Origin: Candidatus Gastranaerophilales bacterium
GTDB taxonomy: Bacteria > Cyanobacteriota > Vampirovibrionia > Gastranaerophilales > JANQFW01
DNA: 36,032 nucleotides
Reading direction: 5' to 3'
Assembly: GCA_028277625.1 (NCBI GenBank)
Contig: JANQFW010000029.1
Coordinates: 1 to 36,032, forward strand
In this document: piece after piece, positions 8,217-29,315 of the stretch
How the letters are laid out: every line of letters begins with the position of its first letter
Numbering within the stretch: the first letter of the stretch is position 1
The notes under the pieces: model-generated
What the model was told of the DNA's origin: nothing
The model's input: only the letters and a program-made list of their open reading frames with translations
The model's database searches: none
Program-made: the position numbers and the translations under genes

Positions 8217-8546
8217 TTACTCTATTAGCAAAGAATCAGATTTTTCCAACTCTTCTACACTATCAGGCCACTTTCCGGATGAGTGCAAAATACGGATAAT
8301 TTCAATATAACCATTTTTCATACGGTAAACGGCAATATAAGGAGTATTTGTTACTATAAGCTCTCTTGTGCCAATAATTCTTCCGGGACGACCGATTTCT
8401 TTAAACTTTACAAGCTTATTTTCTATGGATACAAGGATTTTTTGCGTAATTTCTACTGATGCTTGGGGGTTATCATCGTAGATAAAATCTTCAATGCTTA
8501 ATAAATCCTGGATAGCTTGGGGGGATAGTCTAAATACGTTTTTCAC
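8217..8546 (-). CDS. RelE/ParE-family toxin
   Basis: Likely GTG start at 8546, overlapping antitoxin end: MKNVFRLSPQAIQDLLSIEDFIYDDNPQASVEITQKILVSIE...GRIIGTRELIVTNTPYIAVYRMKNGYIEIIRILHSSGKWP; classic ParE pattern. Confidence 0.85.
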   Translation of the reverse strand: MKNVFRLSPQAIQDLLSIEDFIYDDNPQASVEITQKILVSIENKLVKFKEIGRPGRIIGTRELIVTNTPYIAVYRMKNGYIEIIRILHSSGKWPDSVEELEKSDSLLIE

Positions 8547-8793
8547 GACGCTTTTCCAATATGTCCAAGGCTTGATTGATTGTATAATATTCTCCATTAT
8601 CCAGAGATTTAATAGCCTGCTGAATACCTTCAATTTGCCATTTTTGAAGGTCAATATAGCCTTCCAAGGCTTCTTCAATTAAAACTGTTTGCGGTCTGCC
8701 GGTTGCTTCTGCCAGTGCGACAAGATCAGATTTTATTTGTCTTTTAAGCCTAAAAGATATTGGCTCTTTTTCTTGAGGATTTGGAGCTGTCAT
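8530..8793 (-). CDS. CopG/RHH-type antitoxin
   Basis: 'PISFRLKRQIKSDLVALAEATGRPQTVLIEEALEGYI' ribbon-helix-helix; overlaps downstream ParE. Start MTAPNPQ at 8793. Confidence 0.82.
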   Translation of the reverse strand: MTAPNPQEKEPISFRLKRQIKSDLVALAEATGRPQTVLIEEALEGYIDLQKWQIEGIQQAIKSLDNGEYYTINQALDILEKRREKRI

Positions 8794-8919
8794 AATATTC
8801 AAATCCTTTCTCGTTAATTCATTACATATATTACATTGTATTGTATCTGGAGAAAAATTCAAGACTAAAAATAAATTTTTTATATTTTTCGTAGGCTCTT
8901 GAAAAGTAAAAATACTATC

Positions 8920-8937: not shown

Positions 8938-9120
8938 AAATAAAAATGCCTTGGGTTTAAATAATTATTTGAGCTTTAAAAGAAACCATCTTATTTTTAA
9001 AAAGACAAAATTGAATATTTAATAAAATTAAAAATTATTTGTTGGCAATTTTTATCTACCTTGCATTTTTATAAATTCGAGTTTATTAGATAATACTGTT
9101 ATACTAACTCAGAAATACTT

Positions 9121-9184
9121 TTCAGATTGTTCAATCGTGTTAAAGCTAATAAAATAAGCTAAACTCTGAAAAGAGTAATCTGAA
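9121..9184 (+). ncRNA. Candidate structured RNA/repeat element, copy A
   Basis: Outer stem TTCAGATT/AATCTGAA enclosing AGCT-AATAAAATA-AGCT and ACTCT-GAAA-AGAGT hairpins; core similar to ~22537-22604. Confidence 0.45.
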
Positions 9185-9230
9185 ATTTAATTGATGAGCA
9201 GTATATGTAATATAAAAGAAAGAGAAAAAG

Positions 9231-9836
9231 ATGTTAATTAAATCAACGAATTTAAATTACTCAAAAGTTAATTTACAAAAAGAGAAGAAAGAAGAAAACC
9301 TTGGCTTTAAAGCCGATAGCAAGGCTTTTGCTTATAAAGAGGGAGGCTTAAACTTAAATTTAAGCAGCTTAAATAGCTTGCACCCCAGCTTGGTGAAACA
9401 AAAATCCAGCCAACTCAATAAAAATTTGTCATTTCAAGGTAAAAAAGAAGTAAATAAAGCTTATAGTTATTATAAAACGGCTAAACAGTACCAAATATCA
9501 GAAGCGCAATTAAAACAAGACCTTGGTAATATTTTATATATTCAAGAAGAAAATAAAAATAATTCACATACAAAGGAAGAGCTTGTAAACACAGCATTAT
9601 CTACATTTAAAAAGGTTGACCAATTAGGTAAAACTTTAGATATAAAATGGTCTGAAGATGAAAATCCTAGTAGCATGGCTTGTTTGAAAGAAATAAATTT
9701 AGCTATTTCTTCTGCTCTTAATCCTACACAGTTAAGAAGTTTATCAGAATATGGATATTTGGGAATTTACCAAAGTCCGCCTAATTTAATTGATAATACT
9801 CCAGCTCCTCCAGCAGGACAATGCATCATCAATTAA
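9231..9836 (+). CDS. Hypothetical lineage-type protein with 'NLSFQGKK' motif
   Basis: 201-aa ORF, AAAGAGAAA upstream of ATG, terminator directly downstream; no known domain. Confidence 0.75.
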   Translation: MLIKSTNLNYSKVNLQKEKKEENLGFKADSKAFAYKEGGLNLNLSSLNSLHPSLVKQKSSQLNKNLSFQGKKEVNKAYSYYKTAKQYQISEAQLKQDLGNILYIQEENKNNSHTKEELVNTALSTFKKVDQLGKTLDIKWSEDENPSSMACLKEINLAISSALNPTQLRSLSEYGYLGIYQSPPNLIDNTPAPPAGQCIIN

Positions 9837-9986: not shown

Positions 9987-10559
9987 CTACTCTGAAGTAC
10001 AAACATCCCACGCCATAGATAGCAGATCCAGCGTATACTTATCCGCCAGAATCCATGCCTTGATTTCTTCTTGTGATATCTCAAGTACCTTAGACAGCCT
10101 TTCTATAACCGTACCTGACATTTTATACCTTCCTAAAATCATTCTATTTAATGTTATTTGATCATATTCAATTAACTTGCTTAATTTTGTCCTTGATAAT
10201 TGCTTTTCAAGTATCAATTTGTCAATTTTAGCTGTCAATATTGGGGACTTAGTAACTTTTGTTTTTTGTTGAGGTATTTTAACAGGCTCTGGCGGATTTT
10301 TTTTAGCAGCTAGAGCTTTTTTAATTATTTCACTTGGATATTTATCGGCAACAATCCAGCTTTCAAATTCTTCTTCACTTACTTCTAATATTGGTAATAT
10401 CTTGTTTTTTATGTTTTTAGAAAATGGAACCTTACCGTTAGCCATTTTGCTTAAAGTACCATTTGTGCAATTAATAAGCTTACATACTTTATAACGGGAT
10501 AAACCTTTACTATTTAAAATAGCATCTATTTTATTTTTTAATTCAAATAGTTTCATCAC
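9987..10559 (-). CDS. Double helix-turn-helix (XRE-like) DNA-binding protein, copy 1
   Basis: Two internal ~75-aa HTH repeats (KIDAILNSKGLSRYKVCKLI...WIVADKY; KIDKLILEKQLSRTKLSKLI...WILADKY). Confidence 0.8.
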   Translation of the reverse strand: MMKLFELKNKIDAILNSKGLSRYKVCKLINCTNGTLSKMANGKVPFSKNIKNKILPILEVSEEEFESWIVADKYPSEIIKKALAAKKNPPEPVKIPQQKTKVTKSPILTAKIDKLILEKQLSRTKLSKLIEYDQITLNRMILGRYKMSGTVIERLSKVLEISQEEIKAWILADKYTLDLLSMAWDVCTSE

Positions 10560-10565
10560 TTACCC

Positions 10566-10594
10566 TTGACACGTTTTTTAAAATGCGGTAATAT
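10566..10594 (+). promoter_or_regulatory. Sigma70-type promoter of copy-1 small ORF
   Basis: TTGACA (10566-10571)-N17-TAATAT (10589-10594); identical architecture in copy 2. Confidence 0.75.
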
Positions 10595-10730
10595 AAAATC
10601 AATAAAGAAAAATATAAATTTAGAATTAAATTTTTCAAAAAGATTTAAGCCCTAACTAAAATTAGGGAGACTTTTAAGTATATATACATTTAAACAATAC
10701 TACCACAAAATAATTTGGGGAATTTTTGAA

Positions 10731-10904
10731 GTGAAAAAGATTAAAAATGAACTTATTAAGGAGTTAACGGCTGATATGAACCGCTCAATAGCTGATATAG
10801 TAAAAATACTGTTAAACAATAAAGCTGATATATTGGACTTAAAAGAAGAAATAGCAAATATAAAAAATATACTAAAAGATAATGGCTGTATTGATAGAGC
10901 TTAA
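10731..10904 (+). CDS. 57-aa small coiled-coil-like protein, copy 1 (GTG start; absent from ORF track)
   Basis: MKKIKNELIKELTADMNRSIADIVKILLNNKADILDLKEEIANIKNILKDNGCIDRA; near-identical paralog at 11713 with mostly synonymous differences. Confidence 0.8.
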   Translation: MKKIKNELIKELTADMNRSIADIVKILLNNKADILDLKEEIANIKNILKDNGCIDRA

Positions 10905-10945
10905 CTATATTAATTTTTAATATTTGATGCTTTAATTTAGCAGCA

Positions 10946-11521
10946 CTAAGTATTGTACCCCTCTGTATTACAAACATCCCACGCCATATATAGTACTTCT
11001 AACGAATACTTATCAGCCAATACCCAAGCTTTAATGTCATCCTTCGATATTTCTAGAAATTCAGACAGTCTCTCTATAACAGTATCTGACATTTTGTAAG
11101 CACCCAAAATCATTCTATTTAATGTTATTTGATCATATTCAATTAATTTGCTTAATTTTGTCCTTGACAATTGCTTTTCAAGTATCAGTTTGTCAATTTT
11201 AGCTGTCAATATTGGGGACTTAGTGACTTTTGTTTTTTGTTGAGGTATTTCAACCGCATCTGGCGGATTTTTTTTAACAAATATAGACTTCTTTATTACT
11301 TCCTTATGATATTTATCTGCAATAATCCAGCTTTCAAGCTCTTCTTCACTTACTTCTAGTATTGGCATAAGTTTTTCTTTTGTTCGTTTTGTCATAGATT
11401 GTTTGCCATATATAATTCGGTTCAAATTGCTATCTTTATAATTAATCATTTGGCTTAGCTTATACTTAGACAAGCCCTTTCTTAACAGGATTTCTTCTAT
11501 TTTTTTTGTAACAATAAGCAT
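10946..11521 (-). CDS. Double helix-turn-helix (XRE-like) DNA-binding protein, copy 2
   Basis: Paralog of 9987-10559; C-terminal HTH near identical (QQKTKVTKSPILTAKIDKLILEKQLSRTKLSKLIEYDQITLNRMILG), N-terminal HTH divergent. Confidence 0.8.
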   Translation of the reverse strand: MLIVTKKIEEILLRKGLSKYKLSQMINYKDSNLNRIIYGKQSMTKRTKEKLMPILEVSEEELESWIIADKYHKEVIKKSIFVKKNPPDAVEIPQQKTKVTKSPILTAKIDKLILEKQLSRTKLSKLIEYDQITLNRMILGAYKMSDTVIERLSEFLEISKDDIKAWVLADKYSLEVLYMAWDVCNTEGYNT

Positions 11522-11547
11522 TTTTTACTTAACCCATTTATTTATCC

Positions 11548-11576
11548 TTGACATTTTTTCAAAATTGAAGTAATAT
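11548..11576 (+). promoter_or_regulatory. Sigma70-type promoter of copy-2 small ORF
   Basis: TTGACA (11548-11553)-N17-TAATAT (11571-11576). Confidence 0.75.
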
Positions 11577-11712
11577 AAAATCAATAAAGAAAAATATAAA
11601 TTTAGAATTAAATTTTTCAAAAAGAATTAATCCCTAGCTAAAATTAGGGAAACTTTTAAGTATATATACATTTAAACAATACTACCACAAAATAATTTGG
11701 GGAATTTTTGAA

Positions 11713-11886
11713 GTGAAAAAGAATAAAAATGAACTTATTAAGGAGTTAACAGCCGATATGAACCGCTCAATAGCTGATATAGTAAAAATACTCTTAAATA
11801 ATAAAGCTGATATATTGGATTTAAAAGAAGAAATAGCAAATATAAAAAATATACTAAAAGATAATGGCTGTATTGACAGAGCTTAA
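11713..11886 (+). CDS. 57-aa small coiled-coil-like protein, copy 2 (GTG start; absent from ORF track)
   Basis: MKKNKNELIKELTADMNRSIADIVKILLNNKADILDLKEEIANIKNILKDNGCIDRA; one amino-acid difference from copy 1. Confidence 0.8.
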   Translation: MKKNKNELIKELTADMNRSIADIVKILLNNKADILDLKEEIANIKNILKDNGCIDRA

Positions 11887-11946
11887 TTTATTCAGTTTAA
11901 AGCGCAATATATCTTTTTAAAATCCAAAAATAAAATAATAGATTGT

Positions 11947-21275: not shown

Positions 21276-21701
21276 TTATTCTTGCTTTTTTTCACTATAA
21301 GTTAGAACTCCAGCAGCAAGAAAGAGTCCTGTTGTAGGTAAAATTAAAAGCGCCTTTCTTGTCGTCAATAGTGCCACTAAAGAGATTAAACTTAATTTTT
21401 CCATAAACTTAATAGCAAGAAGTTTATTTTTACTTTTATATTCATTTTTTTCTCGTTCTTGTTCTATAAAAGCGTCACATATAACTCCAGCTCCAATAGC
21501 AGGTATACCAATTGACATTTTTCTATATGCACATGCTGGTACAAGAGCACCTAAGCTTGCTAAATTTACAGTCTTAAGTGCAGCCACTTTATTATTATCC
21601 TTGTCATTTACAATGATGTTAGGGAAAAGTTTAAATGATTTAAAAGCTACTTGCTTTTGGGGGGTGAGTCGAGATGAATAATTACAATTATTCATTTTCA
21701 T
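21276..21701 (-). CDS. Hypothetical membrane protein with 'VAFKSF' N-terminal motif
   Basis: 141-aa ORF, two hydrophobic segments. Confidence 0.7.
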   Translation of the reverse strand: MKMNNCNYSSRLTPQKQVAFKSFKLFPNIIVNDKDNNKVAALKTVNLASLGALVPACAYRKMSIGIPAIGAGVICDAFIEQEREKNEYKSKNKLLAIKFMEKLSLISLVALLTTRKALLILPTTGLFLAAGVLTYSEKKQE

Positions 21702-21822: not shown

Positions 21823-22414
21823 TTAAGTAGTTGTCCAAGTGATTGCATCCGATATATATCTAGCAGGGGGCTTTACAGCTTGCTTAACAGGCTCTCCTGT
21901 TCCTGGAACTATAGCTTCTGCAATGATTCCTACACCTTCTGAAATAGCTTCACTTACAACTTTACCAGCACCTGTTGAGTCAACTATAGCTGCCTTACCA
22001 GCTTCTTCTCCAACCCTTTGAACAGGCCCTCCTTTGAAGCTTAAATTTTTATTATTGGAGAGTTTTTTATACTTGTTAATAAAAAGTAATAGGTTATCGA
22101 TTGCATTTGTTTTTTCTTGATCTTGACCTGCTTTTTTAAGATCCTCGTTGATTTTTTTTACTTTTTTTACAAAAATGTTGGATTTTTTAGAATCCATAGT
22201 TAAAATATCAGTAGCGAATTGAAAAAATTCTTTTGAAATTTTTCCTTCTCTAGAATCTTCTTTTTTTTCTTTTTTATTATGATTTACTAAAACTTTATTA
22301 TATGCAGATAATTTATCAAGCTCTTGACTTGCTCTACCGGCAAACTTAAGTGTCTCTTCTTTTTTTTGTTTTTGCGATTTACTTGACTTGAGGTATAGCT
22401 AATCTATTGATCAT
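21823..22414 (-). pseudogene. Hypothetical 'NLSFKGG' protein; apparent frameshift near N-terminus
   Basis: SD-preceded ATG at 22414 (MINRLAIPQVK*, stop 22379-22381); the +1 frame is open from ~22399 through the ORF ending at 21823. Track start at 22197 appears internal. Confidence 0.65.
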
Positions 22415-27611: not shown

Positions 27612-28256
27612 TTAATCAAATAGGGCTTTTAGCCAGTTAGCAAAATTATTGGCAAGTTCGTTGTCTGCTATAAGTTTTTTTGTTTTTATCGCTAGTCCCA
27701 GCTGGCATCCGGGTTCATCTTGCCAGGCTAAATAAGTATGCACCATAGCTTTAGAATAATGTACATCTTTGAATGTAGTAATTTCTGATTCTTTTGCTAT
27801 ATCTATACTAGTTTTTATAATATCTTTAGCGTAATCGGTTATCATTGTTTTTAAAAAGTCTTCTATCATGCCTGATTCTGAGTTGTTAGGCATAAGCCAT
27901 ACGCCTATTTTCATTTTTTCTGCCGGTATAATTGTGCCTTTTTTATCAGGTGATTTTGGGGCTTCAATATTCTTGGCATTTAAAATTGTTTTTATTTGAT
28001 TCCATCTATCGAGAAGGTGATTATTAGTAGGCTTTTCTATATTTTTATCTGCGTCAATTAATACACCAATGACTTCAGGTTTATCTGATGATTGTAAAAA
28101 AGTTTTTAAAGTTCTGGCTACCCCTCTGTCATTGTCACAGATTTTAATATCAAAATCTTTAATATAACAAACTTTAGATTCTTTTAATTGATAACATATT
28201 GCTTTTGTAACAGCTTCATCGGTTTTCCCCTCAACTAGTAGAACTTTTTTATACAT
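27612..28256 (-). CDS. TOPRIM (DUF3226-like) protein
   Basis: 'VLLVEGKTDEAVTKAI', 'VIGVLIDADKN', 'LMPNNSESGMIEDFLKTMI'. Confidence 0.85.
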   Translation of the reverse strand: MYKKVLLVEGKTDEAVTKAICYQLKESKVCYIKDFDIKICDNDRGVARTLKTFLQSSDKPEVIGVLIDADKNIEKPTNNHLLDRWNQIKTILNAKNIEAPKSPDKKGTIIPAEKMKIGVWLMPNNSESGMIEDFLKTMITDYAKDIIKTSIDIAKESEITTFKDVHYSKAMVHTYLAWQDEPGCQLGLAIKTKKLIADNELANNFANWLKALFD

Positions 28257-29315
28257 TTATCTAAACTCAACTCCTACTGCAAGGCTATCATCAAGAGTTT
28301 CTCTGTCATAATAAACAGCATCTATATCTGGAGAATCCTCTTCTTTTTCCAGTCTATAAAAACAGCCTTCCTCTTCATGCTCACCCCATATTTTATTAAA
28401 TCCCCTTACACAATCCAGGCTGTGAGAGGTTGCAAATACTTGTATATTTAATTCTTTTGAGAGCTTGAATATTATTTCCCATAACTTTGGATGTACTGAC
28501 CAGTGTAGCCCGTTTTCAACTTCATCTATTAAAGCTATACCGTCTTTAGCATTAACCATTGCAAGTATTATGCCTAGCAGACGAGTCATTCCATCGCCAT
28601 AGGTTTTTAAGGATAGTCTTTCTTTTACTTTTTTACTTTTTACTACAGGGATTCTTTTACCTCTATCGCCCATAAAAGCAAGCCCCGTAATGCTTGGTTC
28701 AATTAGTCTTAAGCAATTTATCACAATGCCTTCCAAGTCAGTTAAATTTATATTATCCCATAGTTTTGAAATATTCTGATTATTACAATTTAGAGAAGAA
28801 ACATATTGAACCTCAGTTAATTCACCAACTTCACTTTTTTCAAATTTATCAAAGATTTTAAAATGATTTTTAAATTTATCAAATAACTTTATATTGCTAT
28901 CACTATCTAAAGTTATTTGAATATTATATTCCCCTAGTGTATCAATGTTTATTATCTTTATTCTAAAGCAATCACTGTCAAGATCAACTGGCATAAAATA
29001 TCCGCATACTTTTTCTTTATTAGAACTTATAACTATTTCACTTTTAAGTAGTTCATATCCGTAAAAAATATATTTTAAAGGGTTATCTACTGTTTTATTA
29101 CGCAAATGCTCTTCTATCGAAAGTTCCCAGTCTTGCTCCCTTTCTTTAATTAAATCCCCTAAGTTTGAAAATTTTCTGGCATATGATTGCACTGCCTCTA
29201 ATAAACAGCTTTTGCCCGTATTATTTTTTCCAACAAACAAGTTTACATTACTGAGTTTTGGTACTTTTAGTTCCTTAAATATTTTAAAATTCTGTACATA
29301 AAGGGAATCTAACAT
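28257..29315 (-). CDS. AAA_15/AAA_21-type (OLD/RecF-like) ATPase
   Basis: Walker A 'NLFVGKNNTGKSCLLEAV', 'SLKTYGDGMTRLLGIILAMVNA', Walker B 'GIALIDEVENGLH', 'QVFATSHSLDCV'. Confidence 0.9.
   Translation of the reverse strand: MLDSLYVQNFKIFKELKVPKLSNVNLFVGKNNTGKSCLLEAVQSYARKFSNLGDLIKEREQDWELSIEEHLRNKTVDNPLKYIFYGYELLKSEIVISSNKEKVCGYFMPVDLDSDCFRIKIINIDTLGEYNIQITLDSDSNIKLFDKFKNHFKIFDKFEKSEVGELTEVQYVSSLNCNNQNISKLWDNINLTDLEGIVINCLRLIEPSITGLAFMGDRGKRIPVVKSKKVKERLSLKTYGDGMTRLLGIILAMVNAKDGIALIDEVENGLHWSVHPKLWEIIFKLSKELNIQVFATSHSLDCVRGFNKIWGEHEEEGCFYRLEKEEDSPDIDAVYYDRETLDDSLAVGVEFR

Follow-up and report, generated by a model that had tools for sequence, protein, structure and literature searches.

A multicopy double-HTH regulator and a divergent, previously unannotated microprotein gene in Candidatus Gastranaerophilales

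Introduction

What is a repeated pair of divergent genes, one for a protein with two helix-turn-helix (HTH) repeats and the other for an unannotated protein of 57 residues, doing in the chromosome of a Candidatus Gastranaerophilales bacterium, and is the smaller of the two a gene at all? The window (the whole stretch analyzed here, 36,032 nucleotides of contig JANQFW010000029.1) contains two such pairs in a row. We describe them, follow them through the genome, a sister species (G001) and other families of the order, and weigh a regulatory switch against toxin-antitoxin, prophage, and selfish-repeat readings.

Results and Discussion

Organization of the two units

Direct reading and a repeat search delimited two direct units (9990-10920 and 10961-11901) with 82% identity across 948 columns. 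Each consists of a minus-strand double Cro/C1-type HTH gene and, divergently on the plus strand, a GTG-started open reading frame (ORF) of 57 codons (Table 1), so that the first-pass annotation was correct in both the description and the coordinates. It had also considered the promoters and the ca. 130-nt leaders to be conserved, and the two copies, designated a and b, are indeed 94% identical in the 300 nt spanning the promoter, the leader, and most of the small ORF.

Table 1. Features of the two units, with positions in the window
Feature	Position	Strand	Basis or remark
Double Cro/C1-type HTH protein, copy a	9987..10559	-	190 aa from GTG; alternative ATG at 10556; HTH_26 twice, AlphaFold2 (AF2)
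Promoter of small gene a	10566..10594	+	TTGACA-17-TAATAT (10 of 12)
Candidate HTH promoter, copy a, TTGAAA-16-TATATT	10611..10638	-	Within small-gene leader; weak
Leader of small gene a, ~130 nt	10601..10730	+	Start inferred from -10
Leader hairpin, copy a, CCCTAA-CTAAAA-TTAGGG	10650..10667	+	Conserved; pairing in 22 leaders
Box ACTACCACAAAAT, copy a	10699..10711	+	Upstream of ribosome site
57-aa single-helix (coiled-coil) protein, copy a	10731..10904	+	GTG start; AF2 model is that of copy b, 98% identical
Double-HTH protein, copy b, 191 aa	10946..11521	-	HTH_26/HTH_3 matches, domain-wise divergence
Promoter of small gene b, TTGACA-17-TAATAT	11548..11576	+	Motif score
Candidate HTH promoter, copy b	11593..11620	-	Motif
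Leader of small gene b	11583..11712	+	Start inferred from -10
Leader hairpin, copy b	11632..11649	+	Pairing in 22 leaders
Box ACTACCACAAAAT, copy b	11681..11693	+	Sequence match
57-aa single-helix protein, copy b	11713..11886	+	GTG start; AF2 single continuous helix, residues 5-50, mean pLDDT 95

The small gene

The 57-residue proteins of the two units differ only by I4N, and six synonymous differences separate their genes, just as had been noted before. The purifying selection proposed from this pattern was borne out by the eight copies found in the genome, in which the frame is always open (8/8), the pooled pN/pS is 0.29 (28 pairs), and the variable columns are distributed 22/14/36 over codon positions 1/2/3. 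One antisense frame across the small ORF is also open (score, 0.35) and is read as a shadow that the codon structure of the sense frame would cast; because of it, the choice of strand draws on further evidence, namely, the promoter, the leader, the conserved ribosome-site region, and the start codon. Judged by its sequence, the small ORF is a real gene.

AlphaFold2, run for this protein on two input sequences, modeled a single continuous helix (Table 1), along which I20, I23, L27, N30, I34, L37, I41, I44, and L48 form a regular heptad (by eye), with N30 invariant. We infer a parallel dimer or trimer. No Pfam family reached the cutoff, and DUF397 was absent. Among Pfam, PHROGs, PADLOC, and PDB sequences there were just weak, short, or coiled-coil-like matches and no convincing family, fold, or PDB sequence relative, and the matches to known toxin families were all weak, none of them above the curated cutoff.

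Promoters and leader

The small-gene promoter scores equally in all eight copies. A switch built on face-to-face promoters was considered and rejected, since the weak candidate promoter of the HTH gene was recognized convincingly in only 5/8 copies.

Within the leader, the hairpin arms were aligned by hand in a script, which is not an independent alignment, after a MAFFT alignment that put the hairpins of different families out of register had defeated a whole-leader RNAalifold consensus; aligned in this way, 109/110 inner pairs in 22 leaders were standard, against 30 to 58% for slid arms, and compensatory changes appeared at two pairs (C-G/T-A at one and A-T/G-C at another). By this pairing, the leader hairpin covaries across families. 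A T-rich stretch lies 3' of the stem, the two together resembling an intrinsic terminator, and this succession suggests that the leader may work by attenuation. Seven leaders contain the box ACTACCACAAAAT in exact form and the remaining one with a single mismatch; elsewhere in the genome, the exact box does not occur. When promoter and leader were modeled together, the hits in this genome were the eight modules and nothing else, and G001 had two; the first look scored 150 of several thousand candidates and was therefore not exhaustive. Within the window, the leader had no match in Rfam.

A mosaic double-HTH regulator

Each double-HTH protein matches the Pfam profiles HTH_26/HTH_3 twice, and the AlphaFold2 model of copy a (pLDDT, 88.9) has two six-helix repeats, residues 7 to 87 and 106 to 189, with no third domain. 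Foldseek gave generic single-HTH matches for it (C.AhdI, C.BclI, and SinR), none at E <= 0.001.

The pair of units had been taken for a tandem duplication. Two direct units they are, but not the product of a simple one. The HTH proteins are 68% identical, and their N-terminal HTH domains (N-HTH) share 60% identity at the DNA level; the synonymous distance between the copies is 0.77 in the N-HTH, 0.29 in the linker, 0.25 in the core of the C-terminal HTH (C-HTH), and 0.18 in the small ORF. Since the N-HTH is far more diverged than its flanks, the units are mosaic, which rules out a simple recent tandem duplication; either N-HTH segments would have been exchanged or the flanks converted. A tandem trio from another family (genome G355) follows the same pattern, with pN values of 0.29 to 0.36 in the N-HTH, 0.00 in the linker, and 0.02 to 0.07 in the C-HTH core.

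The two domains also differ in constraint. With the closely related copies C93/C42/C99 set aside, most pairs had nonsynonymous distances of 0.29 to 0.47 in the N-HTH versus 0.03 to 0.07 in the C-HTH. Recognition-helix positions were identical in 29% (N-HTH) and 61% (C-HTH) of cases, against 74% and 83%, respectively, for scaffold positions. Other exposed positions of the N-HTH, beyond the DNA contacts, vary too, so that a weaker constraint is possible. Microproteins a and b are one residue apart despite widely different N-HTH domains, neither promoters nor microproteins have a visible correspondence to N-HTH type, and inspection of the promoter regions by eye, which is not a statistical test, revealed no DNA site changing with it. 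As the N-HTH tracks neither the promoter nor the microprotein of its own module, it probably reads something else.

Copies in the genome and in the sister species

The genome (2.9 Mb, 146 contigs) has eight modules. Conserved divergent linkage had been put forward as the check on the original proposal, and it was found in 8/8 of them, every small gene lying divergently beside a double-HTH gene, with 174 to 243 nt between the two starts where both are known; leader and microprotein recur in other families as well (see below). The HTH genes of C27 and C76 are cut by contig ends, and two more C-terminal HTH pieces sit at the end of C99 and the start of C102, so the assembly breaks within these repeats.

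In G001, two loci are orthologous in position to modules of this genome, and contig ends cut both: the site of C99 has its counterpart on C165, with an HTH gene, and that of C27 on C126, with a small gene. A third locus (on C21) is a decayed remnant in which the C-terminal half of the HTH gene is fused to the promoter, indicating that a given copy is dispensable. The site of the window itself has no module in G001 between MurI and ArsS, and synteny breaks there, which makes insertion indistinguishable from loss. The breakpoint corresponds to window 11947 / G001:C33:5943-6063 / G000:C76; MurI and ArsS are adjacent in G001, whereas here the two are found near separate modules. This arrangement suggests that recombination between modules may be behind the breakpoint.

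Dispersed copies and tandem arrays, contig ends within modules, and a synteny breakpoint at the site are what one would expect of a selfish repeat, i.e., a short element that is dispersed by spreading or recombination, has no cellular role, and keeps the HTH gene and the ORF for its own upkeep. We consider this very improbable. Similarity between modules does not extend beyond the two stop codons, and the marks of a transposon or insertion element, terminal repeats in the modules or a transposase in or beside them, were not seen. The small ORF is under coding constraint, and orthologous sites are retained in two species.

Relatives in other families

The double-HTH family was found in only three of the order's families: f1, represented by this genome and G001, f5 (6/10 genomes), and f6 (2/2); f2 yielded one weak match, to a single HTH domain. 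In a public GTDB-based collection, 14/14 loci came from Cyanobacteria/Candidatus Gastranaerophilales MAGs, and a scan of IMG/VR, phage, and plasmid collections for the module found nothing similar. Most f5 and f6 loci with enough upstream sequence have, before the HTH gene, a TTGACA-17 promoter and a leader in which the hairpin recurs. The small proteins found downstream are of three types: coiled-coil proteins of 47 to 51 aa (L077, L079, and L085; probably L090 and L111), hydrophobic proteins of 56 to 67 aa with two transmembrane segments (two-TM) and a common KN..T.P start (L082, L083, L086, and L109), and proteins of 57 to 58 aa with a C-terminal NNWxxYKxIF (L081 and L112). The f5/f6 coiled-coil proteins matched the 57-aa family with an hhalign probability of 88.9, which may be too high on account of coiled-coil composition. 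Two leaders of the G355 trio lead directly into the next HTH gene, and a clear small ORF is absent at L078, L108, and L087/L089/L091. In a tree of the HTH proteins, one clade holds the membrane-type loci, and the other those of the coiled-coil and NNWxxYKxIF types. The module family is real, conserved, and lineage-restricted, and its function we infer.

Genome G360 has its own peculiarities: palindromic repeats (SERSEESQ...CHCEPPKEAWQSN) have been inserted in frame into the inter-HTH linker of L087, L088, L089, L090, and L091, and the leaders of three of these loci (L087, L089, and L091) hold other insertions.

Comparison with known systems

The first-pass annotation knew of no described system with this layout, which proved too strong a statement. 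In the TF-smORF modules of phages, a TF activates a divergent, unannotated small protein, which inactivates cI (Silpe et al. 2023, PMC10432266), over a TF-smORF distance of about 150 nt (156 nt in an Aeromonas phage; PMC10432266). An XRE regulator with a divergent smORF of ca. 50 aa being known from phages, the layout itself has already been described. Both systems have an XRE-type regulator divergent from an unannotated small ORF (here in 8/8 copies), a small protein with no recognizable domain, and a single logic that serves several unrelated small proteins. However, the modules of Silpe et al. are carried by phages, have cI as their target, and use small XRE regulators, whereas those described here are chromosomal, in up to eight copies per genome, with a double HTH, a conserved hairpin leader, and homologous microproteins across copies.

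Descent from the TF-smORF module of a prophage or other element, since domesticated or left as a remnant, with a microprotein that inactivates the repressor of a phage, would explain this shared layout with its unannotated smORF of ca. 50 aa (PMC10432266), the match of phage repressor profiles to the HTH domains, and the nearest solved folds, restriction-system C-proteins that are also named in PMC10432266. Such an origin, already raised in the initial reading as a prophage-like module, seems improbable, given the lack of matches in phages, plasmids, and IMG/VR and the presence of at least two sites common to two species. Nor was a prophage context found at the window, where the neighbors are housekeeping genes and no phage genes were seen (by eye).

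Streptomyces also has multicopy pairs in which an XRE regulator goes with a small protein; these XRE-DUF397 pairs, many of them paralogous on one chromosome, were first filed as toxin-antitoxin systems and did not behave as such (PMC10364602). There, the small gene encodes DUF397 and follows the XRE gene, co-oriented with it, and the regulator has a single HTH with DUF5753; here, the genes are divergent in all copies, the HTH is double, and DUF397 and DUF5753 are lacking. By the features tested, the present system belongs to neither TF-smORF nor XRE-DUF397.

SinI of Bacillus is a 57-aa helical partner of the Cro/C1-type HTH regulator SinR, which has one HTH plus a dimerization domain; sinI and sinR are co-oriented. 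The size and helical nature of the small protein and the presence of SinR among the fold matches are reminiscent of this pair. Our regulator has instead two HTH repeats and no third (multimerization) domain, our small protein a single helix, and no sequence relation of the module to SinR/SinI was found.

The main rival to the regulatory switch is toxin-antitoxin-like action, with a harmful microprotein silenced transcriptionally by the double-HTH protein and the leader as a second brake. Like type II systems with HTH antitoxins, the modules comprise two small genes, probably autoregulated, and are patchy, multicopy, and sometimes decayed; moreover, two-TM proteins of 56 to 67 aa occupy the small-gene slot in some relatives, cargo type follows HTH clade, and one module adjoins a ParDE-like pair in the window. 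We nevertheless judge it unlikely. The genes are divergent and not operonic, the small protein matches no toxin family, and its coiled-coil type is a soluble helix strongly conserved among paralogs, while the similar XRE-DUF397 pairs were tested for toxicity and none was found (PMC10364602).

A putative regulator-microprotein switch

The regulatory switch, one of the possibilities raised at first, is a reasonable reading and partly supported as an overall interpretation, the pairing being real, coding, and conserved in linkage. We give an even chance to an autoregulated, chromosomal, multicopy regulator-microprotein switch, most likely working, by analogy, like a TF-smORF switch. The double-HTH protein would bind the common divergent promoter region and control a transcript composed of the structured leader and the tiny helical protein. 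Its near-constant C-HTH probably reads an operator common to all modules, and its variable N-HTH probably reads outside targets. The small protein, a predicted continuous helix of ca. 46 residues with regular a/d heptad positions from residue 20 to 48, probably binds a regulator (its own or another) by coiled coil, as an adaptor or antirepressor, and whether it is transcribed or translated is probably controlled by the leader hairpin and the box. The membrane-protein partner in some relatives is a poor fit to a mechanism with a single shared coiled-coil partner.

More tentatively, at somewhat below even chances, we propose that this is a previously undescribed chromosomal system of Gastranaerophilales in which the double-HTH protein and the structured leader would provide a fixed platform for interchangeable microproteins of the three types. 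The N-HTHs of the paralogs would have diversified against a constant C-HTH, leader, and microprotein, so that the switches are cross-connected, with a common output and different inputs. The divergent regulator-smORF logic of phages would then exist also as an expanded chromosomal gene family. The microproteins are of the type missed by ordinary ORF calling, for which the conserved leader would offer a handle to find further hidden examples, and the split between a constant and a variable HTH in one protein would amount to a natural experiment in acquiring new DNA specificities with the output kept.

Other features of the window

Beside the module, overlapping minus-strand ORFs (8217-8862) encode a ParE-like toxin and a ribbon-helix-helix partner, likely a type II toxin-antitoxin pair. 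A dispersed repeat of ~106 bp (9097-9206), with an inverted partial copy at 2473-2527, lies just upstream of the ORF at 9231-9836; it occurs in >40 places in G001 and is absent from the modules. By eye, the translations further along (27612-29315, minus strand) show an ATP-binding AAA-type protein and, next, a small TOPRIM/DUF3226-like one, a pairing that occurs in defense systems. Finally, three proteins of unknown function (9231-9836, 21276-21701, and 21823-22197) have a short [LV][SA]F[KQ] motif (KNLSFQG, KQVAFKS, and KNLSFKG), which may be a lineage-specific signal.
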